NCBI GenBank assembly: GCA_016180845.1
Contig: JACPAK010000004.1
Coordinates: 62,001 to 126,000 of the forward strand
Length of the DNA: 64,000 bases
Direction: 5' to 3'
Source: Deltaproteobacteria bacterium
GTDB taxonomy: Bacteria; UBA10199; JACPAL01
Part shown: positions 31,055 to 51,235 of the stretch, in pieces
How positions within the stretch are numbered: position 1 is the stretch's first letter
How the letters are laid out: each line of letters starts with the position of its first letter
Made by a program: the position numbers and the translations under genes
The notes under the pieces: generated by a model
Databases searched by the model: none
What the model was told of the DNA's origin: nothing
What the model saw: the letters and a program-made list of their open reading frames with translations, nothing else

Positions 31055-31076
31055 GAATTGCTATATACAGATCGAA

Positions 31077-31920: not shown

Positions 31921-32661
31921 GTGGCTGAGACCGGGGGCATCAATCCCCTTAAAAAGGCATTTGAGGCGGCTCTTGTTGGCGATGGGATCGTCAAGGAGGG
32001 AGAACGCGCGGCGATTGAGGCGGCGGTCGATTCTCTGGCAACATCTCCTGATGCGATCGAAGAGGCGCTCCATACAATCTACTGGGGAAGTGGTGTCATC
32101 ACACCTGCCGTCCTCGATCCCCTAAAAGCGAAGCTTCAAGCAGCCGGGATTTCCACCGCCACTTTGGACAGGATTCGAGCGAGTTATGATCAGCAAACTC
32201 ACTGGGCGAAGAAGATCCTACTCCCCCTTGCAAAAGATGGACTCACCACCGACGAACTAAAGCATGTTTTTAATACCGGTGACGGAGAGCTTGGCCTTCG
32301 GCTCTTCATGAATCATTGGGGGGTCGGCGCCATCAATCTCTTTTTGGATGAGGTGATCACACTCGCCTCTTCAGGAACCAAGATCTGGATTGAAGAGGGG
32401 GGACTCGTCTTGATCGAAAATCAGCTCGTCTCTCTCGGTGTCCGAAAGGAACTGATCGATCGAGCCCTGAAAATTAAGCCTCCAGAAAAGAAACAGTCAA
32501 AGGAAAGCACTGAGGAGCGAAGGAGAAGAATAGAGAAAGAGAAAGAAACGGCAGAGGCCGAGAGACAAAGGAAGGCCAATGAGGAGGCTGAGCGATTAAG
32601 AAAAGCAGCACCACCAAAAGGAGACGGGGCTGCAGCGCCTCGCCTTCCACAAGGATTTTAA
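31921..32661 (+). CDS. Unknown operon gene 1, helical protein with charged tail
   Basis: This 246-aa protein is of no recognised family. The start is GTG 31921 with GAGGAGG just upstream. The body (1-190) is mostly helical (LKKAFEAALVGDGIVKEGERAAIEAAVDSL, TDELKHVFNTGDGELGLRLFMNHWGVGAINLFLDEV) and reads like helical or EF-hand-like pairs without canonical calcium ligands. From about 195 a Lys/Glu/Arg coiled coil (RRRRIEKEKETAEAERQRKANEEAERLRKA) precedes a Pro/Gly tail. No signal peptide is seen. The stop codon abuts the next start directly, marking the beginning of a long operon. Confidence 0.65.
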   Translation: MAETGGINPLKKAFEAALVGDGIVKEGERAAIEAAVDSLATSPDAIEEALHTIYWGSGVITPAVLDPLKAKLQAAGISTATLDRIRASYDQQTHWAKKILLPLAKDGLTTDELKHVFNTGDGELGLRLFMNHWGVGAINLFLDEVITLASSGTKIWIEEGGLVLIENQLVSLGVRKELIDRALKIKPPEKKQSKESTEERRRRIEKEKETAEAERQRKANEEAERLRKAAPPKGDGAAAPRLPQGF

Positions 32662-33561
32662 ATGAGCACTGAAATCTTCTGCCATTATGAAAACTTCAAC
32701 CCACTGAATCAGGAGGAGTACTATCTCTCGAAGACGGTTGTCGGTCTTGCAAACAAGATCCTCTGCGAACAGGTCGATCGATTCTTGCAACCAGGGGAGA
32801 GCATCCCGATCGCTCCATTAAACAATAAAAAACTCCAAAATACCTGGGCAAGTTTTATTGAATCAAAGAGAAATCCGTCGACCTACCAAAAATTTGGGGC
32901 CGAGGAAGATGCGGAAAAAACTCTGAAGCGCCTCCAAAAATACAATGCCAACGGTGACGACCAGGTGACCTACGAAGAGATTGTTGATGGACTTAAGCTC
33001 GAGATTCAGGAGGCATCTGTCCCTCTCTCTTCTGTGGAAGGGATGCTCGATAAACTTGTTGCGGAACGGGCTGAATCATTCCGCGCCCTCTCCACCCTCT
33101 ATCTGTTTGCAAAGAATCCGAAGAAGAAGATCGAGGCAAAGAGGGAATACACCCCCAAGTTTGCGCGACCGGCGGCCGGCGCGATCTGGCTCTCCGGTGC
33201 GATCATGACCTATGCCGTTCCGATTCGATATGCGTTGTGGCCAATCTGCAGTCTCATCTCATGGAGGACCAGTCTCGCAAGCGAAACCTCATGGCTTGTG
33301 ACACGATGGCTCCGTCAGACCCCGTTTGTCTGGCCGCTCATGAGATGGCCATCACTGATAAGGGTCGGAGGACTCGTCCCTTTAAGTATCGGCGCGATTC
33401 TCCTGACAACAGGGGTTCTCTATGCAGGGGCGATGGGGCTGAATTATCTGTTCTCTCGAGGAAACGAAGAGAACTCTTTCTTGAAGAAGATTGGAAAGAA
33501 CAAGGCGGAGCCTTTTTTCACCGGTCTCGTGGAGAAGGCAACGTCACTGATCCCGGATTAA
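32662..33561 (+). CDS. Unknown operon gene 2, EF-hand-like loop plus membrane helices
   Basis: This 299-aa protein is not assignable. Residues about 90-110 contain an EF-hand-like loop (KYNANGDDQVTYEEIVDGLKL; N-x-N-x-D-D-x-V-x-x-x-E) in a helical context, so calcium binding is possible although the first ligand is Asn and the usual Gly is Asp. The C-terminal half has two hydrophobic regions (AGAIWLSGAIMTYAVPIRYALWPICSLI and RVGGLVPLSIGAILLTTGVLYAGAMGL) that look like inner-membrane helices. No signal peptide is present. It begins on the base after the previous stop, so it is surely co-translated. Confidence 0.65.
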   Translation: MSTEIFCHYENFNPLNQEEYYLSKTVVGLANKILCEQVDRFLQPGESIPIAPLNNKKLQNTWASFIESKRNPSTYQKFGAEEDAEKTLKRLQKYNANGDDQVTYEEIVDGLKLEIQEASVPLSSVEGMLDKLVAERAESFRALSTLYLFAKNPKKKIEAKREYTPKFARPAAGAIWLSGAIMTYAVPIRYALWPICSLISWRTSLASETSWLVTRWLRQTPFVWPLMRWPSLIRVGGLVPLSIGAILLTTGVLYAGAMGLNYLFSRGNEENSFLKKIGKNKAEPFFTGLVEKATSLIPD

Positions 33562-33571
33562 TGGAGCGAAG

Positions 33572-35101
33572 ATGAGTCGTATTGAAACAAAAGACGGACG
33601 CACAAAGACAACCGAGGCGCTCGAGTTGGCGACGACGGACGGAATCCTCGAAGACGCCGACCTGGACCCTGATAAAAACCCTGACTTCTTCACAGAGACG
33701 ACCACGCAAGACGGTTGGGTCGATGGATTTAAACTCGCTGTCACCAATTTTCTGGAGGATATCCGACAGGGGAAACGAAAAATCTGTGTCACAGAAAAGG
33801 GGCTCGCACTTTTATCAGGGCTAGAAGGAGTTTCTCTCAAAGAGGGGGCAAAACCTGCCGATTATTGTCGACCCCCTTCCGCGAGCACTTCGCCAGCACC
33901 GGTACCGGCTCCCCCACCAGCGCCGTCCCCTTCTGAACCACCGTCCCTTGGCCCTGTCGCTCCAGCACCTGAAGCTCGGGAACCGCTCCCGATTCCAGCC
34001 CCCCCACCTCTCCCTGATTCGTTTGGTGTCCCTGAGGCTAGGACAGAACCGCCACCCCCTCCCGTGGCACCAGCACCACCTGCTCCACCACCCCCTGAAG
34101 CACTGGCGGCACCGATCACTGATCCAGCCGCTTTATTAGAGGCAAACAAAAAGAAGGCAGCCCCCTTTGTCGAGAGGGCAACACGAGCCGCAAACGCTGC
34201 AGGGACTGCTAAGGTCGAGACCGAGAAGACCGGGATTGCTGCCGAGATCGATAAGGCAAAAAAGGGGGCGGAAAAGGCAGCTCAGGCGAAAAAGGAGGCG
34301 GATCAGGCTGCAGCGGCAGGAGATGTTGAGAGGACGAAGGCAGCAGCAGCCAAGGCCGAAGAGGGACAGAGGGAGGCTGAGGCGGCGCTTCAAGCGGCGC
34401 GCGCCGCTAAGACAGCGGCAGACACTGCGGCGACATCAACCCACGACCTCTCCGGGGCAGTCCCCTATAACGAACTCTCTGACACCGTTCGTTCTCGAAA
34501 GGTCAAGATCACGCTCTCCACTTATAAAAAAGGAGATTACCTGAAAAAAATTGAGGCCCAATTCTATATCCCGGAGACTGATCCGGCGAAGGTCTTTGAA
34601 TTTTTGAAAAATAGCCTGAGAGGGAAGACAAGATTCAACAATTCATGGGAAAGAGACTCCCATGTGACTGACTGGCGGGATGATGGGATTAGCGGGACCT
34701 GCATCCATAATGTGCTGATCAATTCCAGTGGGGTCAAGTTCGCAAGCAGTGCCCGCTACACGATGCGAGACAACGAGGATGGGACCTATGGGCTCACATG
34801 GACGACTGTTACTCCGATCCGTATCAAGATGGCTCAATATCCGGAACATACCCCGCTTACACAAAACATCGGTGCCTGGACAATCAAGGCAGTAGTCGAA
34901 ATGAAAAATGGAAAACCGGTTATCGTAGGGACCCTCGTCGAACTCTGGGCCTGGACACACCCGGCAGAAAAACTCGAGGCGGCCAAGAAGGTACTGGGTG
35001 ATGCGGTCGTAAAGGAGGCCCCTGGGATGGCAGCTAACATCTCTAAAGGTACAGGCGGGGAATGGACAAGTTATGAATACGAAAACCCCTCGGTAGAATG
35101 A
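33572..35101 (+). CDS. Unknown operon gene 3, Pro-rich linker, coiled coil and START-like domain
   Basis: This 509-aa modular protein has four parts. Residues 1-95 form a small acidic domain. Residues about 100-190 are an almost pure Pro/Ala linker (PAPPPAPSPSEPPS type). Residues about 195-290 form an Ala/Lys/Glu coiled coil (EKTGIAAEIDKAKKGAEKAA). Residues about 300-509 form an alpha-beta domain with DPAKVFEFLKNSLRGKTRFNNSW, beta strands and a long last helix (HPAEKLEAAKKVLGDAVVKEAPGMAANIS), the layout of helix-grip START/SRPBCC lipid-binding folds. That fold assignment is inference from secondary-structure order. No signal peptide is seen. It lies 10 nt after the preceding gene. Confidence 0.65.
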   Translation: MSRIETKDGRTKTTEALELATTDGILEDADLDPDKNPDFFTETTTQDGWVDGFKLAVTNFLEDIRQGKRKICVTEKGLALLSGLEGVSLKEGAKPADYCRPPSASTSPAPVPAPPPAPSPSEPPSLGPVAPAPEAREPLPIPAPPPLPDSFGVPEARTEPPPPPVAPAPPAPPPPEALAAPITDPAALLEANKKKAAPFVERATRAANAAGTAKVETEKTGIAAEIDKAKKGAEKAAQAKKEADQAAAAGDVERTKAAAAKAEEGQREAEAALQAARAAKTAADTAATSTHDLSGAVPYNELSDTVRSRKVKITLSTYKKGDYLKKIEAQFYIPETDPAKVFEFLKNSLRGKTRFNNSWERDSHVTDWRDDGISGTCIHNVLINSSGVKFASSARYTMRDNEDGTYGLTWTTVTPIRIKMAQYPEHTPLTQNIGAWTIKAVVEMKNGKPVIVGTLVELWAWTHPAEKLEAAKKVLGDAVVKEAPGMAANISKGTGGEWTSYEYENPSVE

Positions 35102-35125
35102 TCGGAAAGAAGGAATTGGTTTATT

Positions 35126-36013
35126 ATGGCTGACACTGACACACTGGAAGCAAGACGACGCAAATATGAAAGCGGAATAACGCCGCCTCCCGCGGAGGAC
35201 ACGCTCGATCGGCGCGCGGCGAAGGCGACAGGGAGGCTTGCGCCCGAAGAGAAAAAAGAAGAAGCACCACCCCCCGCTTCTGCGAACGAAAGCGGCTTCA
35301 GGAGTGTCCGTATCCGTGTCGGTCATCATGTCGGATTCTCCTCGATCGCAACCCCTCATCCTGCTGAAGAGCAAGGGACATCAGAAAGAAGCGCTGGCGA
35401 AGCGCTCGACGATCTGCCGGTCGATTTTCATGTCAGCTATTTCTGGAGACAGGATGTCACACCACTCAAACCACGATTCGGTGTTTTTGTAAGCTATCGC
35501 AATTTCCAGGTGACACAAGAGGTCGGCGATCAGAAACAAACCTCAACCGTCCATCTCGGGGGGATAGGAGGCACTGTTGCCTTCGGTCCTTTTTTAAGTC
35601 CACTCAATGGGGAGGCGTGGAAGGCACTGCTCCAATGGGGAGAGTCAACCCGCATCGGGATTGGTGGAGTTCAGGTCTCTGGAGGGATCGCGGTCGGTCG
35701 GATAGGTGTCGAGACGACCAGACCGAATCCTGATGAACCCGCGGCCAAGGGGAGTGAGTGGGTCATTAGCTCAACCCTCCCGATTCCCGCCTACTTAGAG
35801 GCAGAGGTGATCCTCCTCAGTGCCTTGTTTGGAAAGGAAGATCAGCCATGGGGACAGGTCACGTTGGGAGTCGATAATTTCTTTGTCTTAAAAAAGGCAG
35901 AATTTTGGGAAGAAGGAAGTGATGCGATCGAAGAAGGAGAAGAAAAGGTGAGAGGGAATTTCAGGGCGATTGGGTATCTGACCCCCACCTTAGGTTTGAC
36001 ACTTTTTTGGTAA
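35126..36013 (+). CDS. Unknown operon gene 4, beta-strand-rich protein without signal peptide
   Basis: This 295-aa protein has a charged disordered N-terminus (to about residue 55, MADTDTLEARRRKYES) followed by alternating hydrophobic/polar strands (FRSVRIRVGHHVGFSSI, VDFHVSYFWRQDV, RFGVFVSYRNFQV, TSTVHLGGIGGTVAF, TRIGIGGVQVSGGIAVGRIGV). It ends in an aromatic-terminated strand (AIGYLTPTLGLTLFW). Such a C-terminal strand is the signal used by outer-membrane beta-barrels, but no export signal is seen, so the location is uncertain. It starts 24 nt after gene 3 and ends 8 nt before gene 5. Confidence 0.65.
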   Translation: MADTDTLEARRRKYESGITPPPAEDTLDRRAAKATGRLAPEEKKEEAPPPASANESGFRSVRIRVGHHVGFSSIATPHPAEEQGTSERSAGEALDDLPVDFHVSYFWRQDVTPLKPRFGVFVSYRNFQVTQEVGDQKQTSTVHLGGIGGTVAFGPFLSPLNGEAWKALLQWGESTRIGIGGVQVSGGIAVGRIGVETTRPNPDEPAAKGSEWVISSTLPIPAYLEAEVILLSALFGKEDQPWGQVTLGVDNFFVLKKAEFWEEGSDAIEEGEEKVRGNFRAIGYLTPTLGLTLFW

Positions 36014-36021
36014 GGAGAAAA

Positions 36022-37713
36022 ATGGCAGACGTCGATACAAAAATTAAGGCCCCGAAGGCAACCTTCTCAGAACCGTCCCCTGCTGAGGCCGCTACACCAC
36101 AGCCGTTCACGGGGACAGAGCTTCAGGCAGGGTATGCGGGAGCGACCTTTTCTGACGGGGTCCTCCGCGATGTCGCCTCGGTCTTTCCTGAATCGATCGG
36201 GGTCTCCGCCGGCGCGCTGTTTCGAAGTGGTGACCAGCTCTGGGGTATCGAAGGAGAGGTACGTCGAAGAATTGTCAAGGGCTCACCGGACGCTCGTTAT
36301 CTCGACACCCAGGTCCGCCTCTTCGCCGCCGATGTCCGCTCCTGGTATCCGATGGAGGGGAAGGATCTCGCGGTCGTCTATATCCCGCGCGCCGGTATCG
36401 AGGGGACCATGACAAGTGAGATGGGGAGTGGCGATAGTCGTGGCGGAGGGGTCGCACTTTTCACGAGTGATGAGATCGGCATCGGTCTTCGCAAGGGGTT
36501 CATGATGAGTTTCCGTGTCACGCAGACAGGTGAACTCGTCTCTTCGGATCCTTCGTCACCTGACTGGAACCTGACAGAGGGGGTTTACCTCGTCTGGACA
36601 CCAGGGCTTCAAGGATCACGCGATGATATTGATGATATCGCGAAGGAGCTCAAATTCCTGCAGGGAGACGATGGAAAAGGGGGAAAGATCCCGGAGCGTG
36701 ACAAGGCGAGAGAGCGACTGGCCCAATACGAGCTGTTGCTCGCGAATCTTCAGGAAACGGAGAGACTGGCTGAAGGGACGCCTCCCCGACACCGCTACGA
36801 TCTGGATCAACTGATTCACCATTATCGAGAACTCTCCGATGTCGAACAGATGGCGAAGAAGAAGATTGAAGAGGAGATTGGGTCGCGTCTCAGAGACCAT
36901 GCGACCCCCGCTGACGAAAAGAAAAAACTTCGCGCGCTCAGAGATCAATTAGTAAAATTAACACTGGATCAGTTGCTCGAAAAAGGGGGCGAACAGGCGC
37001 TTCTGGTCTCTTCCTTTCTGGAGAAAATGGACCGTGAAAAATTCGGAAACGACGTAGAGCATCTCCACCTGGCAAACGTGCGTGAATTTAAAAAGCATTA
37101 TGGAGACTTGGACGAACAAATCGCCACGCTAAAGACAAAGAAGGAACAGCTCGAAAAGTCAGCCGAGGAAGGACGGGCCCTCTTCAACGCCGCGAATATC
37201 ACCGCCCGCTCGATGGTCGGTATGAGGATGAATGAGGTCGCAGAGTCAACGGCAACCATCGATGGTACCGAAGGGATGGGGAACCTCTTCCTGCTTGTGG
37301 TGAATCCGATGCAGGATATCCCTATGAAGTTGAGTGTTGAAGAGCTTGCCACGAGCGAATCCAAATGGGTTGGAGGGACTGCTGTTGTCCTCATCGCACT
37401 TGTCGGAGGACTCCAGGTCTGGCGCGGCTCCGCCACGGACGATATCGGACAGATGACCAATGGAATGGTCATGATCAGTTCCGCCGGACAGGCGTTGCCA
37501 CGACTGATCAAAGGAAAAGACAACTATTTGGGGAACGCCACACGACTCGCACTCGGGGCGCTGACTTCCTTAGGCTTTGGACTCGTGGGCCTCAAGATGA
37601 CCCGGGACGGTAATCCGGATAACGATGCGTTAGGTTATCGACTCATGAGCATGGGGGCGAGTGAGGCGATCAGCGGCGCGGTCATCGCTGGAGGGATTAC
37701 TTTTAGTTTTTAA
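36022..37713 (+). CDS. Unknown operon gene 5, beta region, coiled coil and C-terminal membrane helices
   Basis: This 563-aa protein starts at ATG 36022 (MADVDTKIKAPKATF), which has AAGGAG 5-10 nt upstream. Residues about 30-195 are beta-strand-rich and resemble gene 4 (ELQAGYAGATFSDGVL, GVALFTSDEIGIGLRKGFMMSFRV). About 200-410 is a long charged helical/coiled-coil region. From about 450 there are three or four hydrophobic helices (WVGGTAVVLIALVGGLQVW, ATRLALGALTSLGFGLVGL, GASEAISGAVIAGGITFSF). No signal peptide or known family is seen. It may be an inner-membrane component with a large N-terminal domain. Confidence 0.65.
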   Translation: MADVDTKIKAPKATFSEPSPAEAATPQPFTGTELQAGYAGATFSDGVLRDVASVFPESIGVSAGALFRSGDQLWGIEGEVRRRIVKGSPDARYLDTQVRLFAADVRSWYPMEGKDLAVVYIPRAGIEGTMTSEMGSGDSRGGGVALFTSDEIGIGLRKGFMMSFRVTQTGELVSSDPSSPDWNLTEGVYLVWTPGLQGSRDDIDDIAKELKFLQGDDGKGGKIPERDKARERLAQYELLLANLQETERLAEGTPPRHRYDLDQLIHHYRELSDVEQMAKKKIEEEIGSRLRDHATPADEKKKLRALRDQLVKLTLDQLLEKGGEQALLVSSFLEKMDREKFGNDVEHLHLANVREFKKHYGDLDEQIATLKTKKEQLEKSAEEGRALFNAANITARSMVGMRMNEVAESTATIDGTEGMGNLFLLVVNPMQDIPMKLSVEELATSESKWVGGTAVVLIALVGGLQVWRGSATDDIGQMTNGMVMISSAGQALPRLIKGKDNYLGNATRLALGALTSLGFGLVGLKMTRDGNPDNDALGYRLMSMGASEAISGAVIAGGITFSF

Positions 37714-37718
37714 AAAAA

Positions 37719-40700
37719 ATGAAACGAACACGAAAAATTTTATTCGTCTTTTTTATTCTCCCTGCCGCTCTTCTTGCCGCTTGCGCCGGTGGAGGGAAGG
37801 ACGAACCGTACCTCTTCCCCTCGATCGTCCCTTCAGAGGGCACCCCCGCGCCAAGTGGTGAACCTCAACCCGACGAAGGGGTCCCCTGTGAGGACAATTC
37901 AAACTGTCCTGAAGGACAGGTCTGTCGAGAGGGAACTTGCACCGCTGAAACTGAGGTTGTCTGTACAGAGGACTCCGAATGTGAGGAGGGAAAGATCTGC
38001 AAGATTGGAGAGGATGAAAAGGGAACCTGTATCGAGGGATGCCGAACCAACGAACAATGCGAGGATGGTGAGCAGTGCACCGAAAACAACACCTGCCAAC
38101 CGGTTATCGGAGGGAACCTCTGCGAGACGCAATTTGAGGCGACATTGACCCTTTATATTGACGCCTCTCTCGGAACCTCCGATGCCCCGAGTGCCTGTAA
38201 CAATTATCCCTCGCCTCCGCATACCGATCTCTTTTGTTGCCACTCAACGAGCGATACCGCCACCCCCCTCAACGGAGAAGAGCGATTTTGTGCCCGTGCC
38301 GAAACGCTTGCCCTGACGCGATTTCTGGGGAGCCAACCGATGAAGATGAAGTTTGATTTTTCGAACGGATGCAAGGTCTACGTCGCCGCAGTCGATTTCC
38401 CTGGTTTTCGGTTGGACAATACGGCACTCGAAGCGGCGCTCATCATCGATGCCGGCGCTACTTACGACCGCCTCAAGGATCACATCGCTGTCAGTGATTG
38501 CCATGAGACAGAAAATGGCGGGATTGCGATCGACAGCCTTCCGCTTCAATTCATGATCCGGCTCTATGACAACTTTAACCGCTGTCAGATTCTGGGGGAG
38601 GATGATTGTGTCGGCCCTGCCTATAGCCGATGGTTTTCCGATTTTAGTCCGACGACCAATCCGCCACCCAATCAGTCGTTTCAGATTATTCCCGGGCTTT
38701 CAAAGGAGTTTCTGCATCTCACAACCGATGAGATTGAGATTACGCCGGTACCCGGAACAGTAGACGTCGGACCGGTCCGTATCTCCGGTAGCCCCACCAC
38801 TTTTGATGCCAGCGCTGGCGAAACGAGAATGACACTTGTCACGGGGCTCATCGTCCCTGAGGGGACTTCCTCAGACCCTGACCAAGGTACCGGCCAGCTC
38901 GGAGCCGCACTCGGCAATGCGGTTATGGCGGCCGAGATTACGGGCATCCTAAGAAATCCGGCAAAAGAAGACGGAACCATCGAGAGTCTTTCGGATCTCA
39001 GAGAAAATTGTGGGGGGGGTGGCGGTGGTGGTGGAACCCCGGTCTTAAATCTGACCGCCTCTGTCGCAACACCACTCGGTCAAGGTGAACTCCTCTCGGA
39101 AGATCTTCCAGTCGTGAGGGATGCTAATGGTAAGATCACGATCGATCTCTGCCTCCCAGGAACTCATCAGCAAGGAAATTGTATCGCTGTTCCGACGAGC
39201 GATCTCCCTTTTGCGAAGGAGGATGGCGATCCCCTCTTTCCCGGGATAGAGGAGCGGTTTATTCAACAAGCAACAGTCACCTTGACGATCGGCGCCGGCT
39301 CCAATCAAAACCTTGATTTGAACGTCCCCGATCAGGTCGGCCCGCTCAAGATTGTCAACGCCCATGACCTGAACACCGCTATCTTCGCACCGATCGTAAA
39401 TAGCGCGATCGCCCTGCAGTTGGAATTCCATCCCGAGCTGGCGGGTCAAGGCTGTTCGAGTTCAGGCGGCCAGGTTACCTGTTCCTCAGAGGTCCGCATC
39501 AGTGAGAACCCTGAAGTCACCCTCTCTCTTCATGGCTTTGGTCGCCCCCCGGCCCCATCGATCGAGATCTCGGAATTAAACCTTTCTGAACCCGGCAGTG
39601 GTGGAACGCCTCTCGCTGTTCATAGTTCAACGCCACCTACCATCACCTTTTCAGAACAGATCGTCGGGATTCAAACGGAAAACAAACTCCTCCGGGTCTC
39701 AAACAACGGTGTCCGCACTCTCGAAGTCACAAGCATTGAGGCTCAGGATCTGAATCTGAACTTCCGGGTCGGCGCTATTTATCAGGGGGAAAGCTTTGAG
39801 GAACGGGAGTGGAGGGGGAATAGAGATCAATGGTCGGTCCCGCCCGACGGCCGCAGAGACCTCTTTTTCTTCCTGAACTATGGTCCCTTCGCGAAACCGG
39901 TCATCACCTCAGCGGACAGGAGACGGACCGATCATACCCTCTTGAAGGTAGAGGGGGATGGAATCAACCCGGCAACAGCGGTCTTGAGTGGGATCGCCAA
40001 ACAGGATCGTCGTGGGACACTCTCTCTGTATCTTCAAGATGAATCCCGCTTTATCGCTTCGGGAGTCAGTTGTGATCCGACCTGTCCTGAAGGAATTGAT
40101 CAGCTCGTGATCAGCGAAACAGAAACCGATCACCTCTTCCGAGCCAGCAATTTTCTCGCCAGTTTCCGTCAGGATGGTGCTGAAAAGGCGCTCTACCTCA
40201 AAAACGACGGGATCTCAGGTACAGAAGATATCGTGATGGCATCACGTCCGCAATTTTCCGGAACGGATATCGGAAAATTCTGTATCAAATGGACAGATCT
40301 TGGAGAGACCGCATGCCACACCGACGGAAGTGGCGACGAAGGGACGGAGACGCCTCCCCTGACGTTCAGTTTGGCAGCCGGTGAAAAACGGAAGATTGCG
40401 ACGATCCAGTTCGATGTGCCAGAGGGATCTTCTAATTATCGCGTCTTCGAGGCCCAATTCGACGTTAATGCCTACTCCGGTCGCCCCGGGAACCGACCCA
40501 AGATCGGTGGAGTCCCATCCGACAGCGGCAACAGTACCCAAATCACCTTTAATATGAAGGGGAGCAATGGGGCGCCGGACGGAACACGAAATCTGATTGT
40601 CCATCGACTCATGGCTGGAATGGATAAGCGATTGAGCGATAGCCTCCAGAGGACACGCATCTTAACAACAGCCACTCGAGGGATTCTCGATCGAGCAGGG

Positions 40701-41615
40701 ATCACCGATATCACTCGCTACCTCGATCGCTTTACGCTGCCAGGTGGGATCCGGCTCGATCCGGTCAGTGGTACCGCCATCTTAAAACCGATTTTTACGA
40801 CCCCCGACCCTGATCGCAACAACCCCGTAGCCGCGACAAACCCCAGCTTCAATGGAGTCCGGATCTACAACACGATTGGATCAGACCCCTCACGAACCGA
40901 GTATCGATTCCAGTGCGAAAATGCCTCTGGACACTCTTGTTCCTATTTCTATCTGTACCTCTCGGATTGGGAGGCGGCCGATCAAAGCCCCTCTTGTGGT
41001 GGAGGCAAGGTCACGGTCACAAGCTCCAACTTCTCGAACATCTTGAACCCCGCGATCGCCTCCGAGGCTGATTGTATCCAGAGCTATTACAATGAGACCG
41101 ATTCTCCGGCACTTGCCACCGGGACTTATGATCCTGTCACCGGCGAGATCTCATTCTCAAACCTTGCGGTAAGACTCTTCTCTCCTGTGGTACCAGCCTT
41201 GGGAAATGACCCGATCGACGCGGTCCTTCAGCTCGCCCTCACGACTGAATGTATCTCTTCGGCCTTCATCCCGGATCAGGCAGCGCAATCCAAGAGACTT
41301 GTTCCCGAAGCGACACTCAACGATCCAGGAACCGGTTGTGGTCCCTGTTTTGACACATTACTCATGGGGCTCGAGGGGAGAAATCCGATCTCACCTTATG
41401 TGGAAGGACCTCGCTGCGCCGATCCCGACGAACTCCATGGCCGACGACTTCTCGAACCCGATACGAGTGGCACATTCGATCGAGGAGCAATTGAGGGGGA
41501 ACTGCCAGCTGGATCGTTAACAATGGATTTGGCCGGAGTGGCGCGGATTGCGAGTCCGAACCCTCAGGCACAAGGAACGATGATGTACATTATTATTAAA
41601 GCGGAGATCGATTAA
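37719..41615 (+). CDS. Unknown operon gene 6, giant Cys-rich lipoprotein
   Basis: This 1298-aa exported lipoprotein has lipobox LLAAC after a basic signal peptide. Residues about 45-130 are Cys-rich repeats (NSNCPEGQVCREGTCT, DSECEEGKICKIG, NEQCEDGEQCTENNTC) typical of secreted proteins of myxobacteria and relatives. A middle region has paired cysteines (FCCHSTSD, CHETENGG) and a run of eight glycines near 432. Residues about 600-720 resemble an Ig-like or choice-of-anchor domain (PAPSIEISELNLSEPGSG, LRVSNNGVRTLEVTSIEAQDL). It should sit on the outer-membrane surface or in the periplasm. It is separated by 5 nt from gene 5 and overlaps gene 7 by 1 nt. Confidence 0.75.
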   Translation: MKRTRKILFVFFILPAALLAACAGGGKDEPYLFPSIVPSEGTPAPSGEPQPDEGVPCEDNSNCPEGQVCREGTCTAETEVVCTEDSECEEGKICKIGEDEKGTCIEGCRTNEQCEDGEQCTENNTCQPVIGGNLCETQFEATLTLYIDASLGTSDAPSACNNYPSPPHTDLFCCHSTSDTATPLNGEERFCARAETLALTRFLGSQPMKMKFDFSNGCKVYVAAVDFPGFRLDNTALEAALIIDAGATYDRLKDHIAVSDCHETENGGIAIDSLPLQFMIRLYDNFNRCQILGEDDCVGPAYSRWFSDFSPTTNPPPNQSFQIIPGLSKEFLHLTTDEIEITPVPGTVDVGPVRISGSPTTFDASAGETRMTLVTGLIVPEGTSSDPDQGTGQLGAALGNAVMAAEITGILRNPAKEDGTIESLSDLRENCGGGGGGGGTPVLNLTASVATPLGQGELLSEDLPVVRDANGKITIDLCLPGTHQQGNCIAVPTSDLPFAKEDGDPLFPGIEERFIQQATVTLTIGAGSNQNLDLNVPDQVGPLKIVNAHDLNTAIFAPIVNSAIALQLEFHPELAGQGCSSSGGQVTCSSEVRISENPEVTLSLHGFGRPPAPSIEISELNLSEPGSGGTPLAVHSSTPPTITFSEQIVGIQTENKLLRVSNNGVRTLEVTSIEAQDLNLNFRVGAIYQGESFEEREWRGNRDQWSVPPDGRRDLFFFLNYGPFAKPVITSADRRRTDHTLLKVEGDGINPATAVLSGIAKQDRRGTLSLYLQDESRFIASGVSCDPTCPEGIDQLVISETETDHLFRASNFLASFRQDGAEKALYLKNDGISGTEDIVMASRPQFSGTDIGKFCIKWTDLGETACHTDGSGDEGTETPPLTFSLAAGEKRKIATIQFDVPEGSSNYRVFEAQFDVNAYSGRPGNRPKIGGVPSDSGNSTQITFNMKGSNGAPDGTRNLIVHRLMAGMDKRLSDSLQRTRILTTATRGILDRAGITDITRYLDRFTLPGGIRLDPVSGTAILKPIFTTPDPDRNNPVAATNPSFNGVRIYNTIGSDPSRTEYRFQCENASGHSCSYFYLYLSDWEAADQSPSCGGGKVTVTSSNFSNILNPAIASEADCIQSYYNETDSPALATGTYDPVTGEISFSNLAVRLFSPVVPALGNDPIDAVLQLALTTECISSAFIPDQAAQSKRLVPEATLNDPGTGCGPCFDTLLMGLEGRNPISPYVEGPRCADPDELHGRRLLEPDTSGTFDRGAIEGELPAGSLTMDLAGVARIASPNPQAQGTMMYIIIKAEID

Positions 41616-44600
41616 TGATTAGAATCTTTCTGAGCATTCTCTTTATATTCCTTTCTCAGGTCAGTTTTGCAGACTGGCGGGGCAACACCATTGCCCTCAC
41701 CTGCCCGAATCCACCGGCAGGTCTTGAGGAGGGAACAGCACTTTGCGACTGTGAGTTTGATACCGATGCTGCTTGTGACCCTGAGGAAAATTATATCGGA
41801 GGAAAGATCTGTATTGTTCAGCCGGTAGCCGATCAAAACATCAATGATTCTACCGTTTGTATTCTTGGAAAGATCCGCTCTTATGAAGATCTTCAAAATC
41901 TGATCGATCTGGTCGCTGCTATCTCTTCCCCGGATGAGTCGAATCCGATTCCGGATGAATTAGCCGAACCGGATCCGATCGAAATAGAAAACAACGGCGG
42001 CTCCTTCCGAATTCTTCTCCCGCTTCAGCGAGAGGGGGAATTTCAGGCGATCGTCCATGCCGATTTTTTCACCGGCGGAAGCAATCCGATCCAGAAGATT
42101 GCCGAGGTACGAGACGTCACCCGCATCAGTGTCCCCGACTTGAATGTCACTGCCGCGCGTGAGAACGGTACTGTCGGTCAGGCGAACTATATCACGTCGC
42201 CCCTCACCGATACCGATGGGGATGGAATCCCCGACAGTGAAGATCCTGATTGGGACAACGATGGAATTTACAATGACGCCGATCCTGATGACGACAACGA
42301 CGGGATCTGTGACCGGATGGAAAATGTCGTTGATTCCGAAGGGAATCGTATCTGCGTCGCCGGAGACCGGCCGGACGAGGTCGCCAGACGTCGCGTGCAA
42401 GTGACACTGCCACCGGAGCTTCAGGAGATCGACGATACATTTAGCGCCAACAACATCGATCTCTGCCTCAGAACAGAAGAGGGCTCGAGCCCCGGTAGTG
42501 AGCTGACCTTCACTGTTTACAATGAGATTGTCGATTCAACCGCTGGTTATGAAAAAACCCTTCAAAACAATTCTGAAGTCACCGCGACCCAAGACGGTCT
42601 CTTCTGCCCTGAGGGTCACGTGATTACCGTCCCACTCGGTCATGGAGAAAACCGCATCGCAGTTGAGGTCAGTAACGCCGCTACTGTCGGCTCCGTGGGA
42701 CATCGAATCGCCCTCGCCCCGATCCAGAATGATATCCGCGGTCCCGAGCTCTGCGTCTCCTATTTCCGTGACGATGACCTCGAGGAACCACTGGAAGAGG
42801 TCGATGGGCAGGTATTGGCGGTTCGTCAACGAACCTCAATCCGATACAGTCGTATCTTCGGCGTCAATATTCCCGTTGGCGTTGACCTTGTCGATGAGAT
42901 CCCTTCTTTCGTGATGGTCGCCGTCTCGGTGTGTGGTGAAGAACCAGACCAACTTCCGGAACGACCACGCCGAAGAAATCGATGGGGAATGGAAATCCTC
43001 TGCAACGAAGAACATTCGATCTGTTTCTGGCCCAACAACCAGACGATAGAAGACGGAACCCCCCTCCGAACACCAATGGCGGAGCGAACGCGCGGTGGCA
43101 CGACCTACCATGCCTCTCCATTTTATGACTTAAGATTCCCGGTCAATACCTTCACGATCAGCGCGCGTGACGTTCATGGAAACAAAACGGTTCAGTCGCA
43201 TTCCTTCGGATTTGGAAAGGTACGATCGATGGCGGATGCATCAGGTGCCTTCCAACCACGATCGGCGCAGGTCCCGAAGGCACTTTCGATGTATCTGCCG
43301 GCAAGTTACGTTACGGGGGAACTCAAGCAAACCCTTCTCAAGATCCTCAACTCCGACAAGTTTAAGCAAGAGACCTTTCCCTCTCTCTTCGAGCCTCACC
43401 GACCTGCCACGAGCGTCGAATCCTCCTGTCCTGAGGCGTTCCCCGAAGGGAAATTGAGGGTCATCAATCTCTTTGAACATACCATTGGAGATATTGAAAT
43501 CCCGCGACTTCAGCTCCTCTCGGGCAACCGTCTTCGCGTAACCCTTCAAATCAACGATCTCGAAGGAAAGGCAGACCTTTTCGAGATCGAACTGACCGAT
43601 ACCGACGATGATGGGATCCCGGATGTCGATGATACGGACGATGATTGCGCCGAAGGCAACCCGGAATGTCAGGGTCTCTCACCGGATACCGACAATCCCA
43701 CCGGAGACAACGACGGCGATGGTCATCCGAATCAATCCGACTTTCCCGGAGAATTGGCACGGATCCCGGTGTATGAAACCTGGATGCTCCCCGCCCTCCT
43801 GACTGTCGAAAGGCTGACCGTACGCATCCAGATGGAGTTTTATCGGGAAAATGACAAACTTCGGGTACGGATTCTTAATCCCCCAGGAGAAATGCTGATC
43901 TCTGTCAATGGAATGGGAGAACCCGGTCGTCTCGTGCAACTTGAATGTAACCGAGAGGCCCATACCTACTTTGATGGAGAACCGGCAACGATTGATTCTG
44001 CCTGTGCGGAACTCGCCAGCTTGAACGAAAGGGTTAGTGGAAGTGGACGCGATGAAAACTGTCTGAATCAAAATCTCGATGACCAGCTTGAGTCCACGTT
44101 GGAAGAGATGCTCAGACGACAGATCCCGTTTGCCCTCAACCAGGCGATCGATGAATCGGCAGAGACGAGGCTCAGTCAGGTAGCACTCGACATGTTCGAT
44201 AAAAAACTGGCGCTGGATCTTTACGCCGATCTTTCAAAATCCGATATCCGTGTCAGTCCGATCGGTCTTTTTCTAAAACTGGATGCCCTCCTCGCCCCAG
44301 CGGGACTGACAGAAGCGGATGCGACCGATGAGGAGATTGAGGAGCTAAACGCCTTCGAATTCTTCCGAAATAACTTGGGTCCTCAATTTGAGAATAACAA
44401 CTTGACCGCCTTGAACTTCGGTCCGATCCGTGAGGTGGAATCTCCGGAACCGGTCGATCCGGCGGAGGAGGCGTCTCATGTCGGATCTGAGTTAAACCTG
44501 GCCTTGGGTGAGGAATTCGTAAACTCCCTCCTCCATTCAGCGAATACCCTGCTTCACCAATTAAGCCTTGAGAAGCCGGATTTCATGGATATGAGTGTGA

Positions 44601-45796
44601 CGCAACTTCGAGAGATGGGGATGGCGGCACCGGATATCGGTGGCTCTGTCTGTCTCGATAAGGAGGGGCATGATGTCCTGGACGATGGTCGGGGGCCCGG
44701 TGAAACAGACGATCCGACAAACAATTGGAAATGCTTCCCGTTCAATCTCGACCTCGGAACAATGCTTGGTGATGGAATGATCGCAGGACTCCCTGGCGAG
44801 ACACCGCTTGTTGTTCGGACCAAACTGAATCCGAACGCCCCCCTGATGGCGAGAATCGTCAATTTCAGTACGATGGCGACTCCACCGGATGAAAGTGGCT
44901 CAACCCGCCCTCCGATGATCACGGCAGAGCTTGAGATCGGCATGAGAGATGGTGAGATGCAGGTCTTCGAAGGACAGTTTATCGACACCGGAAGAAGACG
45001 GGAAGGGTATAAGAGGACGGAACGAAAGATTGAGGTTAAAGACTGGTGTGAGCGGCAACCACTTGCGCATCCTCGCTGCGCCGATCCGAACCATGAAGAT
45101 CTCCCGATGGTCAGCTACAAGACGAATGGGCGGATTTCGATCTCCCTTACATTTTTGATCGACGAGGGGTTGGTCACCATTACCGGCGGGATTACGGGAC
45201 ACTCCGTCTCGACATCGACGGAACTGACAGAAGAAAGTACCAGTTACGCCGTCCCGACAGACTGGGAGGTCGATACCGATCGGACCTACCTGAATCTGAG
45301 TGTGAAAGAGAACTACACGTTGGCACGGGACACAAACGACTCTACAACCTCTTCCCAGGGAATCGTTACCACGTTCCAAAACCAGATCATCGCGCTATTA
45401 ACCAGATATCTTGCTGAGACCGATCATTCAATCTGGGTCGATGTCCCGTTGAAGGCCCCCTTGAGCCAGTTCTGTGCCCTTCATCCGGAGGTTCGAGAGA
45501 TCTGTGACTGTGTTGGGGATCACAAGGGCCAGACCTGCCAGGCGACCTCCGCAGTCGATGACCTGCTCGAAGAGACGGAACCCTACGGTATCTTCGGAAT
45601 CGAGATTAATGACCTCCTGATCGGCATGACCGGCAGTGCCTATGTCGGCGACACACGAGAGGAATCTGTGGAATCAATCAATGCCGCCCCGCGTTATCTA
45701 TTGATGGGGGCGGGGGTCTGTATGAGGGATTGTCTACGGGGGGCAGATGGGGAATGCGTCGAACCGATGGAATATGGGGAGTGTATTGGTGATTAA
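41615..45796 (+). CDS. Unknown operon gene 7, giant exported protein with thrombospondin-3 repeats
   Basis: This 1393-aa protein has a signal peptide (FLSILFIFLSQVSFA). Two calcium-binding thrombospondin type 3 stretches are visible: DTDGDGIPDSEDPDWDNDG and its continuation (about 195-235), and DTDDDGIPDVDDTDDD with DNDGDGHPNQSD (about 660-710). The remainder alternates amphipathic helices (VNSLLHSANTLLHQLSLEKPDFM, NQIIALLTRYLAETDHSIW) with long strands (ITAELEIGMRDGEMQVFEGQFI, RISISLTFLIDEGLVTITGG). This pattern is compatible with a BPI/TULIP-like lipid-binding fold, stated as a guess. Paired cysteines suggest oxidation outside the cytoplasm. Its ATG overlaps the stop of gene 6. Confidence 0.75.
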   Translation: MIRIFLSILFIFLSQVSFADWRGNTIALTCPNPPAGLEEGTALCDCEFDTDAACDPEENYIGGKICIVQPVADQNINDSTVCILGKIRSYEDLQNLIDLVAAISSPDESNPIPDELAEPDPIEIENNGGSFRILLPLQREGEFQAIVHADFFTGGSNPIQKIAEVRDVTRISVPDLNVTAARENGTVGQANYITSPLTDTDGDGIPDSEDPDWDNDGIYNDADPDDDNDGICDRMENVVDSEGNRICVAGDRPDEVARRRVQVTLPPELQEIDDTFSANNIDLCLRTEEGSSPGSELTFTVYNEIVDSTAGYEKTLQNNSEVTATQDGLFCPEGHVITVPLGHGENRIAVEVSNAATVGSVGHRIALAPIQNDIRGPELCVSYFRDDDLEEPLEEVDGQVLAVRQRTSIRYSRIFGVNIPVGVDLVDEIPSFVMVAVSVCGEEPDQLPERPRRRNRWGMEILCNEEHSICFWPNNQTIEDGTPLRTPMAERTRGGTTYHASPFYDLRFPVNTFTISARDVHGNKTVQSHSFGFGKVRSMADASGAFQPRSAQVPKALSMYLPASYVTGELKQTLLKILNSDKFKQETFPSLFEPHRPATSVESSCPEAFPEGKLRVINLFEHTIGDIEIPRLQLLSGNRLRVTLQINDLEGKADLFEIELTDTDDDGIPDVDDTDDDCAEGNPECQGLSPDTDNPTGDNDGDGHPNQSDFPGELARIPVYETWMLPALLTVERLTVRIQMEFYRENDKLRVRILNPPGEMLISVNGMGEPGRLVQLECNREAHTYFDGEPATIDSACAELASLNERVSGSGRDENCLNQNLDDQLESTLEEMLRRQIPFALNQAIDESAETRLSQVALDMFDKKLALDLYADLSKSDIRVSPIGLFLKLDALLAPAGLTEADATDEEIEELNAFEFFRNNLGPQFENNNLTALNFGPIREVESPEPVDPAEEASHVGSELNLALGEEFVNSLLHSANTLLHQLSLEKPDFMDMSVTQLREMGMAAPDIGGSVCLDKEGHDVLDDGRGPGETDDPTNNWKCFPFNLDLGTMLGDGMIAGLPGETPLVVRTKLNPNAPLMARIVNFSTMATPPDESGSTRPPMITAELEIGMRDGEMQVFEGQFIDTGRRREGYKRTERKIEVKDWCERQPLAHPRCADPNHEDLPMVSYKTNGRISISLTFLIDEGLVTITGGITGHSVSTSTELTEESTSYAVPTDWEVDTDRTYLNLSVKENYTLARDTNDSTTSSQGIVTTFQNQIIALLTRYLAETDHSIWVDVPLKAPLSQFCALHPEVREICDCVGDHKGQTCQATSAVDDLLEETEPYGIFGIEINDLLIGMTGSAYVGDTREESVESINAAPRYLLMGAGVCMRDCLRGADGECVEPMEYGECIGD

Positions 45797-45815
45797 GGTT
45801 AACTTAATTTTAAAT

Positions 45816-45899
45816 GGAACGGGTCCTGTCTGGGGGTTCCGCCCACCCGTGCTCACCCGTTGCGCGCGGGCGGGCGCCCGACCCCCAGTCACCCGTTCC
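45816..45899. repeat. 84-nt structured repeat, copy 2
   Basis: The architecture matches the copy at 27524. The outer stem is GGAACGGGT/ACCCGTTCC (45816-45824 with 45891-45899), with left bulge CCTGT and right bulge TC. The inner stem is CTGGGGGT/ACCCCCAG (45830-45837 with 45881-45888). The 43-nt core (45838-45880) is identical to copy 1. The arms differ between copies yet remain fully complementary. It lies 20 nt after gene 7 and 54 nt before gene 8, so it may act as a terminator or processing element. Confidence 0.8.
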
Positions 45900-45952
45900 A
45901 AAGAAAAAGTGCAACATCTCATTAAGTCTACCGATAATAATAAAGAGAGCTT

Positions 45953-46990
45953 ATGAGATTAAATGGTCCAAGACTGATTCAATATATCCCCTGGCTGGTA
46001 ACAGCCCTGATGGCAGCCGCCTGCGGCGAGGACGATTCCACCCCCGAAGAGCCCCATTTCCGGCAGACCGAACCAGATCCGGATAATGCGATCGCCGATC
46101 GAAACTGTCGCCTCACCTTGACCACCTATGCCGATGATGTCTCGTTTAGTGCACCATTCCGAAATTTTCCAAACACACCGGCACAGCCGGTCAACATCTG
46201 TGTGAAGCAGGCGATCGACCGAAACCAACTCGCCTTCCGAGCCAAAGCGGCAGGTCAGACTTATGATCTCTCCGGGATTGAGAAATGGGCCAGTTTCCCA
46301 CGACTCCTTGAAGAGAAAAACTGGAGCGCCATCTGCCGTGAAAGCAGCGCCAATTTTACCGATTGCCAGAAGGTCCTGCGCTACACAAACCCGCGTGCCG
46401 AGGGGCGTGATCTCTACCAAATCGAGCATGAGATCGCAAACTCCAATCCGACTGCCACTGGAAACTTGGGGAGAATGTTCGTCGACATGCTCGGCCTCCT
46501 GACAAGGAGTGAGGCGCTCACGATTGGTACCCATTCCCATGCGATCGGTCTTGCAGAATTCTTAGACACAAAACCGACCGAAGCCCCTCGTGCCAACATC
46601 AGCTTTGACCTTGAGTCAACAGTCGCCGGATTCGACGGTTACCTGCCGTCGAGTGGAAAATATCTCCTCGCCGGTTATCGCCGCACAGGGACTCCGGAAA
46701 CACCGGATCCCAATGATTGCCTCCCAACGGTAGGGAAAGAGGTCGAAACAGCCGACGGGACGGTTATTACTTTTCCCTTTTACGAAGACGAGATCCCGGT
46801 CCTCTTTACGGAAGGGGTCCAATTTCTCTATCAAAACGTAAGTGGGGCTGGCACCTATTGGGCCACCGCCTGTGAAGGGGACTGCCCAACCATCATGGGA
46901 ACAGCCGTTGGTAGACTTTACAAAAAGATGGAAGTTGCCTGTGATGGACAGGATGCGTCACCTGTACCCGAAGAAGAAGAAGAAGAATAA
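45953..46990 (+). CDS. Unknown operon gene 8, lipoprotein
   Basis: This 345-aa exported lipoprotein has a hydrophobic segment (YIPWLVTALMAAAC) ending in a lipobox. The mature start is acidic and Pro-rich (GEDDSTPEEPHFRQTEPD), and the tail is a run of glutamates (VPEEEEEE). The middle contains paired cysteines (NRNCRLTLTTYADDV... CVKQAIDRNQLAF; CEGDCPTIMG). No domain is recognised. It follows gene 7 after the structured repeat, and the next gene (TolC family) begins 45 nt later. Confidence 0.7.
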   Translation: MRLNGPRLIQYIPWLVTALMAAACGEDDSTPEEPHFRQTEPDPDNAIADRNCRLTLTTYADDVSFSAPFRNFPNTPAQPVNICVKQAIDRNQLAFRAKAAGQTYDLSGIEKWASFPRLLEEKNWSAICRESSANFTDCQKVLRYTNPRAEGRDLYQIEHEIANSNPTATGNLGRMFVDMLGLLTRSEALTIGTHSHAIGLAEFLDTKPTEAPRANISFDLESTVAGFDGYLPSSGKYLLAGYRRTGTPETPDPNDCLPTVGKEVETADGTVITFPFYEDEIPVLFTEGVQFLYQNVSGAGTYWATACEGDCPTIMGTAVGRLYKKMEVACDGQDASPVPEEEEEE

Positions 46991-47035: not shown

Positions 47036-48409
47036 ATGTCTTTAATGAAATCTGTATTGATAGGCCTCGTCGTACTTCGGGCATTCCCGCTATCGGCTGC
47101 TGAAGAGATCAACTCAGCAACGGAAAAGGCACAGAAGTTTTGGGGACCACGATCGGAAGAGATCCTGATCCTCGACCTTAAAGAATGCATCCATCGAGCA
47201 GCCCTCTTCAACGGAGAGATCCAGGCGGCCGATTACGACATCGAAACAGCCGAGGCACGGAAAGACAATGTCCGGAAGATCGGAATCCCTGTCGCCGAAT
47301 ATGAATACAACGTCGGCCCTGCCCCCCGTGATGTCTCGAACGCCGTCGAAAGCTTCTTCACAGGAGACCTGACGGTCTTTAACCGCGTGAAGGTCGGAGT
47401 CGGTGTCCCCCTGCAGACATTTGGGAAGGTCAAGACAGGAAAGGCGCTGGCCGATCTTGGCATCATGGCTGAAAAAGAAAAGAAAATGGGGAAGAAGGCG
47501 GAGATCGGGCTCAAGGTCGCTCAACTCTACAACGGCATCCTGCTCGCGCGTGAGGTCAGACGTCTGATCAAGACAGCGAAGGACGAACTCGCGAAAGAAA
47601 TCAAAAAAAGGGAACAACATGAAGGGGGAGATCCCTCGGAACTTCTGAAACTGAAACTTTTCCATGCCGAAATTGAGCGACGCGTCGAAGAGGTCGATAA
47701 AAAAGAGATCATGGCAAAAGAAGCGCTCCGTGTCTTGATCGACGTCGATCCTCGTGTCCGTTTCGAAATCAAGACGGAACGTCTCGAACCACAGCTTCGC
47801 ACCCTCCCCCCTTACGAAAAGATTCGTGAAGAGGCGCTCGTAAACCGAAGCGATCTGAAACAATTGGATATCCTCTACGAGGTCCGCCAAAAAAAGCTGA
47901 CGCTGGAAAAGAGACTTCCGACGCCGAATCTCGGTATCGGTGCCTTTTTTGAGCTCGGTCGTACACCCGGCATCACAGGACTCTCAGCAACGGACGATTA
48001 CACAGATCCCTTTAACTACACCCGAGCCGGGATCGGTCTTCGTCTCAAGGGGGAGTTTGATTTCCGAAGCACCGCCTCGAAGATTCGTGAGGCAAAGAGT
48101 GAATTGATGAAGACGCAAATTCAAAGGGAGATGGCACACGAGGGTTCATTGCTTGAAGTCAAAGAGGCCTATCTTGATGCCCAAAATGCCCAGCAGGAGA
48201 TTGTACGGGCGGAAGAAGCGGGAAAACTCTCTCGCCAACTTCTCTTCCTGACTCAAAGCAACTATGACATTGGTCTTGCAGAACCGAAGGATTTTGTTGA
48301 TGCGGTCCAGTCTTTTCTGGAGACGCGGGGAAAATATTTTGAGGCGCTCTTTAATTATAATGTAGCCCTTGCTAAGTTAGACCAAAAAACTGGGAGGAAA
48401 CCTGAATGA
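47036..48409 (+). CDS. TolC-family outer membrane protein
   Basis: This 457-aa outer-membrane channel component of the TolC/OEP family has a signal peptide (SVLIGLVVLRAFPLSAAEE). Two repeated halves rich in long helices are seen, with the typical NFEIQAADYDIETAEARK-like start (here NGEIQAADYDIETAEARKDN) and the C-terminal VQSFLETRGKYFEALFNYNVALAKLDQKTG. Such proteins form the trans-periplasmic duct of type I secretion or efflux. No inner-membrane partner is nearby. It overlaps the MlaC-like gene by 4 nt. ATG 47045 is an alternative start, and neither has a clear ribosome-binding site. Confidence 0.88.
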   Translation: MSLMKSVLIGLVVLRAFPLSAAEEINSATEKAQKFWGPRSEEILILDLKECIHRAALFNGEIQAADYDIETAEARKDNVRKIGIPVAEYEYNVGPAPRDVSNAVESFFTGDLTVFNRVKVGVGVPLQTFGKVKTGKALADLGIMAEKEKKMGKKAEIGLKVAQLYNGILLAREVRRLIKTAKDELAKEIKKREQHEGGDPSELLKLKLFHAEIERRVEEVDKKEIMAKEALRVLIDVDPRVRFEIKTERLEPQLRTLPPYEKIREEALVNRSDLKQLDILYEVRQKKLTLEKRLPTPNLGIGAFFELGRTPGITGLSATDDYTDPFNYTRAGIGLRLKGEFDFRSTASKIREAKSELMKTQIQREMAHEGSLLEVKEAYLDAQNAQQEIVRAEEAGKLSRQLLFLTQSNYDIGLAEPKDFVDAVQSFLETRGKYFEALFNYNVALAKLDQKTGRKPE

Positions 48410-50659: not shown

Positions 50660-51235
50660 ATGTCAAACAAGTCGGTCAGAATCATCGAGGCAGCGACCAA
50701 GGTTTTTGCCAAAAAAGGCTTTTATAACGCTACGATAGCGGATGTTGCCAAAACGGCGGAAGTGGCTGAGGGGACGATTTATCTTTATTTCAAAAACAAA
50801 GACGACCTGCTGATCTCGATCTTTGAACATTCGATCGATCTTTTTATTCAGGCGGTCAACAAGAAGCTCAAGGAAATAACCGACCCTAAAGAAAAATTGC
50901 GGCAATTCATCTGGGTCCACCTGAAGCTGGTCGAGGAAAACCCCAACCTGGCTCAGGTTCTTCAGATAGAACTCCGACAATCCTCCAAATTTATGGAGGA
51001 GTACCGTGGAGGTAAGTTCGCGGAATATCTTCATGTTGTCGAAGGAATCCTGATGGAGGGACAAGAAAAGGGGGTTTTTCGAAAAGATCTCAATACCCAC
51101 CTTTTAAGACGAACCCTTTTCGGAGCGGTCGATGAGATGGCACTCGATTGGCTCTTGATGAAAAAGAAAAGATATAGTTTAGAAGAATGTGCGAGTCAGT
51201 TGAGCCAGATGTTTATCCAAGGAATGGTGGTATGA
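50660..51235 (+). CDS. TetR-family transcriptional regulator
   Basis: This 191-aa regulator has the TetR DNA-binding domain at residues about 8-55 (AATKVFAKKGFYNATIADVAKTAEVAEGTIYLYFKNKDDLL), followed by a helical ligand domain. It overlaps etfB by 4 nt (ATGA), so it is in the etf operon and probably controls it. TetR proteins next to etfBA in related bacteria respond to acyl-CoA esters and control fatty-acid oxidation, so this role is likely but inferred. Confidence 0.9.
   Translation: MSNKSVRIIEAATKVFAKKGFYNATIADVAKTAEVAEGTIYLYFKNKDDLLISIFEHSIDLFIQAVNKKLKEITDPKEKLRQFIWVHLKLVEENPNLAQVLQIELRQSSKFMEEYRGGKFAEYLHVVEGILMEGQEKGVFRKDLNTHLLRRTLFGAVDEMALDWLLMKKKRYSLEECASQLSQMFIQGMVV

Follow-up and report, generated by a model that had tools for sequence, protein, structure and literature searches.

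A conserved gene pair encoding a predicted tandem TULIP protein and a large lipoprotein in an eight-gene run of a UBA10199 bacterium, with a possible role in lipid transfer

The eight-gene run and its conserved core

We analyzed a 64,000-nucleotide stretch of DNA (the window) from a Deltaproteobacteria bacterium of the GTDB lineage UBA10199 (assembly GCA_016180845.1), which lies on contig C4 of a 98% complete genome of 2.13 Mb. At positions 31921-46990 lies a run of eight consecutive plus-strand genes, here called G1 to G8. The product of G7 is likely an exported protein with two tandem TULIP domains, and we read the operon, with confidence slightly short of even, as a lipid-acquisition or lipid-transfer module of the cell envelope or surface. 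A first-pass annotation, made from the DNA letters alone, had described eight genes of no nameable family here; all eight open reading frames (ORFs) are present in the order and spacing it gave, none matches a Pfam family above cut-off, and G6 to G8 likewise match none in NCBIfam. Its gaps of mostly 0-24 nucleotides or overlaps apply to every junction but G7-G8 (0, 10, 24, -7, 5, -1 and 156 nucleotides from G1 to G8, then 45 from G8 to a TolC gene and -4 from TolC to an MlaC gene). Promoter and terminator scans gave site numbers close to those for shuffled sequence and are silent on transcription units.

The eight products fall into two groups by signal. G1 (31921..32661, 246 amino acids) is helical with a charged coiled-coil tail, and G2 (32662..33561, 299 amino acids) has an EF-hand-like motif and hydrophobic segments toward its C-terminus. 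G3 (33572..35101, 509 amino acids) combines a Pro-rich and coiled-coil region with an alpha/beta C-terminal domain; the START-like fold once proposed for it was not confirmed by a search of PDB sequences with its profile. That search, and those with G7 alone and with profiles of G7, G6 and the barrel family described below, gave no meaningful matches. G4 (35126..36013, 295 amino acids) is beta-rich and ends in Trp, while G5 (36007..37713, 568 amino acids, with an alternative ATG start at 36022) has a beta-rich N-terminal half, a coiled-coil and hydrophobic C-terminal half, and a terminal Phe. G6 (37719..41615) encodes a 1298-amino-acid lipoprotein with 39 Cys, in which Cys-rich repeats, matching DUF7107 (E 0.002) and Myxo_Cys_RPT (E 3e-4) below threshold, precede beta domains. 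G7 (41615..45796, 1393 amino acids, 32 Cys) has a beta-rich N-terminal half and TSP3-type DxDxDG repeats at residues ~193-240 and ~668-700, and G8 (45953..46990) is a 345-amino-acid lipoprotein with 9 Cys. By N-terminal hydropathy, the basis of all our signal calls (G1 to G8, their counterparts in the sister genus, and the barrel family), G1 to G5 carry no signal, G6 (LAAC) and G8 (AAAC) carry lipoprotein signals, and G7 carries a Sec signal. The division noted in the first-pass annotation thus holds in the window; it is not fully general, as the sister-genus equivalent of G3 has a lipoprotein-like N-terminus.

Are these eight ORFs genes, and do they belong together? We compared 46 genomes of the window's class, which appears to be a phylum of its own among the genomes available, since the grades of relatedness step from same class directly to same domain. 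A genome of the sister genus (G001) has the order nadD, G1 to G8, an extra gene, TolC, MlaC and phosphodiesterase (PDE), the same as the window except for the extra gene. Because the order is shared, G1 to G8 are genes and not chance ORFs. G6 and G7 are 36-37% identical to their counterparts there (E 0), G5 (E 1.6e-13) and G8 (29% over 290 amino acids, E 3e-18) have clear homologs, and G1 (30% over 108 amino acids, E 8e-4) and G4 (E 0.002) match weakly; G2 and G3 have equivalents by position only. The extra gene of G001 (L022:3589-5883), between G8 and TolC, encodes a signal-less protein of 764 amino acids with two hydrophobic segments. In the window, nadD (31053..31574, plus strand, PF01467) is the upstream landmark.

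Across the phylum, profiles of G7 and G6, searched against all 46 genomes, found members in 29 and 28 of them, respectively. The pair is kept with a signal-less beta-rich protein in G002, G004, G005 and G013. We read 20 further stretches from relatives: in most, G6 and G7 are adjacent, usually divergent, and a signal-less protein of 500-620 amino acids follows G6. As exceptions, G6 occurs without a detected G7 in G003, and the two lie on separate contigs in G025. Loci of the pair adjoin nadD in families f1, f10 and f14. The conserved core is therefore the G6-G7 pair, usually with a signal-less beta-rich partner (together, the trio), and G1 to G4 are recognizable only in the sister genus. The homologs are not scattered and unlinked, an outcome that would have spoken against the system first proposed: G1 to G8 are collinear in the sister genus and G6-G7 is widely paired. 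Searches for homologs beyond the phylum returned just short matches over TSP3 repeats or weak fragments.

The relatives' loci show further features. The G6 homolog of G004 (L025:7075-12192) has 93 Cys and a tandem expansion of DQVCNNGKCEAKPPV-type repeats. A lipoprotein of ~820-870 amino acids adjoins G7 in several families (L098:9121-11583, L104:3512-6127, L101:2452-5067, L107:215-2830, L108:218-2839), and von Willebrand type A models matched both of the members that were scanned. In G007, G7 and TolC are separated by TatC and a histidine kinase gene (L098:11662-12357); G014 has a similar gene pair, and in G005 and G013 kinase-like genes follow G7 or lie close to it.

G7 as a predicted tandem TULIP protein

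TULIP proteins are lipid carriers between membranes, with the BPI type best known from animal immunity and blood. We modeled residues 240-1393 of G7 with AlphaFold2 from an alignment of 13 sequences (G7 and 12 relatives) and compared this and the other predicted structure with the PDB by Foldseek. The G7 model (1154 residues) has a mean predicted local distance difference test score (pLDDT) of 68 and a predicted template-modeling score (pTM) of 0.69. Its top four matches are LBP (4e-10), CETP (5.5e-10), BPI (9e-10) and a second LBP chain, each with probability 1.00 and E no higher than 4e-9. At a distance come BPIFA1/SPLUNC1 and the bacterial OrfX1-OrfX3 complex (E 5e-4), and among the other matches at E 1e-4 to 1e-3 complement-type (macroglobulin-like) domains predominate. 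One order of elements, which we take to be that of BPI, occurs twice in the model, at 314-661 and 721-1132: strand, helix, long strands, long helix, strands. The predicted BPI-like tandem region spans residues ~553 to 1371. With moderate model confidence, G7 is likely, though not proven, to be a Sec-exported tandem TULIP protein like LBP, CETP and BPI.

At the sequence level, G7 stands apart. Against the LBP_BPI_CETP Pfam models and solved members it gave no match up to E 10, which argues against placing it in the BPI/LBP/CETP sequence family and not against a common fold. Published bacterial TULIP families include P47, OrfX2, YceB, DUF4403 (a BPI-like pseudodimer), DUF2140 and DUF2993 (PMC6791001, PMC5507252), and G7 matched none of their Pfam models at E up to 10. 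G7 is therefore a candidate new family of bacterial pseudodimeric TULIP proteins. Membership in DUF4403 in particular was rejected, as PF14356 does not match G7; a search with PF14356 across the phylum gave no match, with the controls equally silent.

Lipid-handling neighbors and an apparent gap in fatty-acid synthesis

The genes that follow G8, all on the plus strand, bear on what such a protein might do. As the first-pass annotation had noted, a TolC-family outer membrane protein (OEP; 47036..48409, PF02321 E 2e-31) and an MlaC-family periplasmic lipid carrier (48406..49236, PF05494 E 7e-26; best NCBIfam match HpnM, sub-threshold) come directly downstream. Next are a type I phosphodiesterase/alkaline-phosphatase-superfamily hydrolase, the PDE (49212..50615, PF01663 E 4e-28), for which NCBIfam and further searches gave no family-level assignment; a TetR regulator of the FadR (fatty-acid metabolism) type (50660..51235, NF053878 at 194.6 bits against a cut-off of 200, E 1.4e-57; E 5e-37 to the FadR structure 3whb); and EtfB and EtfA, the electron-transfer flavoprotein (Etf) subunits (51187..52967, NCBIfam matches). 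TolC, MlaC and PDE follow G6-G7 in G001 and G002, the stretch read from G004 ends with TolC after the pair, and the G6-G7 stretch of G007 (f6) contains all three. The TetR-EtfB-EtfA order is kept in G002, and G007 has EtfB-EtfA directly after PDE.

Two other explanations can be set beside lipid transfer. One is that there is no functional unit at all: G6-G7 would be one system, and the other genes neighbors by chance or by a common promoter. The weak or absent conservation of most operon genes beyond the pair and its signal-less partner fits this idea; against it count the collinearity of G1 to G8 in the sister genus and the fact that f1, f2, f4 and f6 keep TolC, and mostly also MlaC and PDE, close to the pair, and we think it very unlikely. 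The other is a housekeeping path for the cell's own envelope lipids, resembling Mla or Lpt, in which G7 would form a periplasmic tunnel between the membranes with TolC and MlaC as partners. An MlaC-family protein and TolC do share the gene run, and TULIP proteins of bacteria, YceB among them, are assigned to the envelope (PMC6791001, PMC5507252). However, G6-G7 was not found in 17 of the 46 genomes, so it is not essential housekeeping; the proteins are disulfide-rich, 1300-1400 amino acids long, and have TSP3 repeats and surface-type domains; and relatives link the genes to type III secretion. We consider this path unlikely. As for the envelope system and lipid trafficking guessed at from the DNA letters, the predicted TULIP fold and the TolC-MlaC-PDE genes near G6-G7 in several families support the idea in part, but the eight genes do not form a fixed set. 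A separate candidate, type I secretion through TolC, was set aside, as no ATP-binding cassette (ABC) exporter or membrane fusion protein was seen in the operon (the rest of the genome was not searched).

Where would the cell's lipids come from? Ketoacyl-synthase searches for a beta-ketoacyl-ACP (acyl carrier protein) synthase in the window genome gave thiolases only (they did not extend to FabH or the other steps of the pathway), one of them beside a 3-hydroxyacyl-CoA dehydrogenase. The FabF cut-off was reached in none of the 46 genomes of the phylum, compared with 9 of 14 controls; most of the 46 have thiolase-level matches only, while a few encode FabF-like proteins with lower scores or, within very large ORFs, ketosynthase domains. 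A phylum-wide loss of type II fatty-acid synthesis is thus possible. The missing synthase, the FadR and Etf neighbors, and the type III link described below had all been overlooked in the first-pass annotation.

Two observations concern the surrounding sequence. At its N-terminus the MlaC gene (48406-48560) runs across a GC-rich inverted repeat, CCCCCCTTTGTCAAAGGGGGGG, and there encodes SPCVPLLQRGKRGVPPFDKGGLGG, and an ORF starting at 55549 (55154-55549) opens with the peptide GGKSTKSPPN, related to SPCVPLLQRGKRGVPPFDKGGLGG; this suggests a dispersed repeat and an uncertain start for MlaC. Upstream of the run, a 345-amino-acid, signal-less, Arg/Pro-rich gene (27798-28835) is possibly a further secreted protein; the counterpart neighborhood in G001 has a signal-less gene of 356 amino acids (L029:4698-5768) near RmuC.

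Signal-less barrels, type III secretion and the proposed mechanism

The third conserved protein, the signal-less partner of G6-G7 in relatives, has a predicted fold of its own. None of its 15 sequences has a Sec signal. The model, for which the first row of the alignment came from G031, has 8 strands, ~180 helical residues and 8 more strands (pLDDT 79, pTM 0.76), the first strand beginning at residue 22, and most members end in Phe or Trp. The PDB matches listed by Foldseek are essentially all outer-membrane barrels (OmpA, OmpG, FadL/TodX, porins), with a best E of 3e-7; the global TM-scores are low, and one 16-strand barrel is indistinguishable from two smaller barrels. We describe the family as a predicted 16-strand barrel of the outer-membrane type with a helical insert, barrel-like in fold but, since no member has a Sec signal, not an ordinary outer-membrane protein. 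Profiles from single families recover the protein in others (f10 to f14, E 1.3e-15; f18 to f10, 2e-13; f6 to f10, 7e-11) and recover nothing in the window's order. G4 and G5 resemble the family in being beta-rich and signal-less with an aromatic C-terminus, and neither gave a significant profile match; G5 is the positional equivalent of the barrel.

How might a protein made without a signal leave the cell? The window genome has a non-flagellar type III system, with SctV (788.6 bits against an hrcV cut-off of 692), SctN, SctJ and an LcrH/SycD-like chaperone (94.8 bits, cut-off 104.8); a type III locus lies at G000:C3:60000-79999 (L031) and G000:C3:42000-59999 (L033), and no flagellin was found in the genome. 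In f6 (G007, G014, G018, G023, G033) the barrel gene adjoins an LcrH-like gene, and the type III loci around it are complete or partial. The trio of f18 (G035) comes after sctO-N-L-K-I-sigma-J-G, and its G7 is ~1.5 kb from sctJ. The link to type III secretion is real in these two families, and for the window we infer it. Pfam scans found no Sct apparatus protein encoded in the operon itself. SctV-type proteins occur in 44 of the 46 genomes, some of which also have a second, higher-scoring FHIPEP protein, maybe flagellar, so co-occurrence with G6-G7 is uninformative.

The main rival to lipid transfer starts from these loci and gives G7 a receptor role. The operon would be a type III contact module, with G6 and G7 as surface proteins that recognize a target, the TULIP domains of G7 binding its lipopolysaccharide or lipid, and G1 to G5 acting as translocators or effectors. 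The trio's place inside or beside type III loci in f6 and f18, where it touches LcrH-like chaperones and translocator-like genes, is consistent with this, as are the near-universal SctV, were it not uninformative, the EF-hand and hydrophobic pattern of G2, seen also in proteins of type III clusters, and the beta domains and Cys-rich repeats usual in adhesins. However, in the window, f10 and f14 the trio lies beside nadD instead of type III genes, and the recurrent TolC, MlaC, PDE and Etf neighbors are left unexplained. We find a contact module doubtful, though less so than the housekeeping path.

In the lipid-transfer reading that we tentatively prefer, G7 would carry lipid in its two tandem TULIP domains, predicted to come after the beta-rich N-terminal half and TSP3 repeats of the calcium-binding type. 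G6, the constant partner of G7, is a disulfide-rich lipoprotein of the outer membrane and would probably dock it. The signal-less beta-rich proteins (G4 and G5, or the barrel in relatives) might form a membrane pore or a place to dock, and the type III system of the phylum would plausibly export them, possibly into a target cell. Lipid held by G7, whose source may be a target cell, the surroundings or the envelope of the cell itself, could then be handed to periplasmic MlaC, have its head groups trimmed by the phosphodiesterase, and go to membranes or be burnt through FadR-controlled, Etf-dependent beta-oxidation. Contact with another cell is perhaps the site of transfer, and the module may perhaps feed a cell that seemingly lacks the usual route to fatty acids. 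We infer the ligand, the direction of transport, the order of hand-over and the type III export of the window's G1 to G5. The fullest version, a phylum-specific lipid-taking machine with a secreted BPI-like carrier, a lipoprotein dock and a type III-delivered barrel in the target membrane, supplying a bacterium that has no type II fatty-acid synthesis and uses beta-oxidation to burn lipids, is decidedly unlikely in our estimate.

Several observations weigh against the lipid-transfer reading. The G7 model was built on just 13 sequences and, by comparison with BPI, its TM-scores are low (0.19 by query, 0.39 by target), which leaves the packing of its domains uncertain; such scores are expected if parts of the 1154-residue model are wrongly packed against each other, and the fold is accordingly rated as likely. 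No sequence profile ties G7 to a known TULIP family, and the placing of G5 in the barrel family by sequence is unsupported, with no significant profile match. The window genome's operon lies on contig C4 and its type III genes on C3. A lipid ABC transporter and an MCE protein were not seen in the operon. Finally, thiolase-based synthesis could possibly stand in for the missing synthase.

A widespread and unrecognized bacterial TULIP protein of the BPI type, tied to a type III locus and to a signal-less barrel, would bear on three questions: the origin of the fold, the lipid supply of an uncultured phylum seemingly without normal fatty-acid synthesis, and whether membrane barrels can be delivered by type III systems.

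We found no described counterpart of the whole arrangement, and no literature on type III secretion in this phylum under the phylum name tried. Parts of it resemble known systems. The link to the type III injectisome lies in the Sct genes and LcrH-like chaperone of the window genome and in the relatives' trio inside that locus, whereas the window's operon has no apparatus gene and is on another contig. Like the eukaryotic BPI, LBP and CETP, G7 is exported and has two tandem TULIP domains, predicted in its C-terminal half; unlike them it is bacterial, about three times longer, without a match to their Pfam models, and has TSP3 repeats and a beta-rich N-terminal half. DUF4403 shares the bacterial tandem TULIP architecture but is a single domain of ~460 amino acids (PMC6791001), and its PF14356 model finds no match in G7. 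P47/OrfX and YceB (DUF1439) are also TULIP folds in bacteria, OrfX1-OrfX3 being among the structures matched by G7, and differ in size and gene context, with no sequence match. Mla phospholipid transport has a counterpart in the MlaC-family gene that overlaps TolC in the window. MlaFEDB and MlaA were not among the nearby ORFs scanned, which include the operon (the genome was not searched for them), and in their place stand a predicted TULIP protein and a giant lipoprotein.

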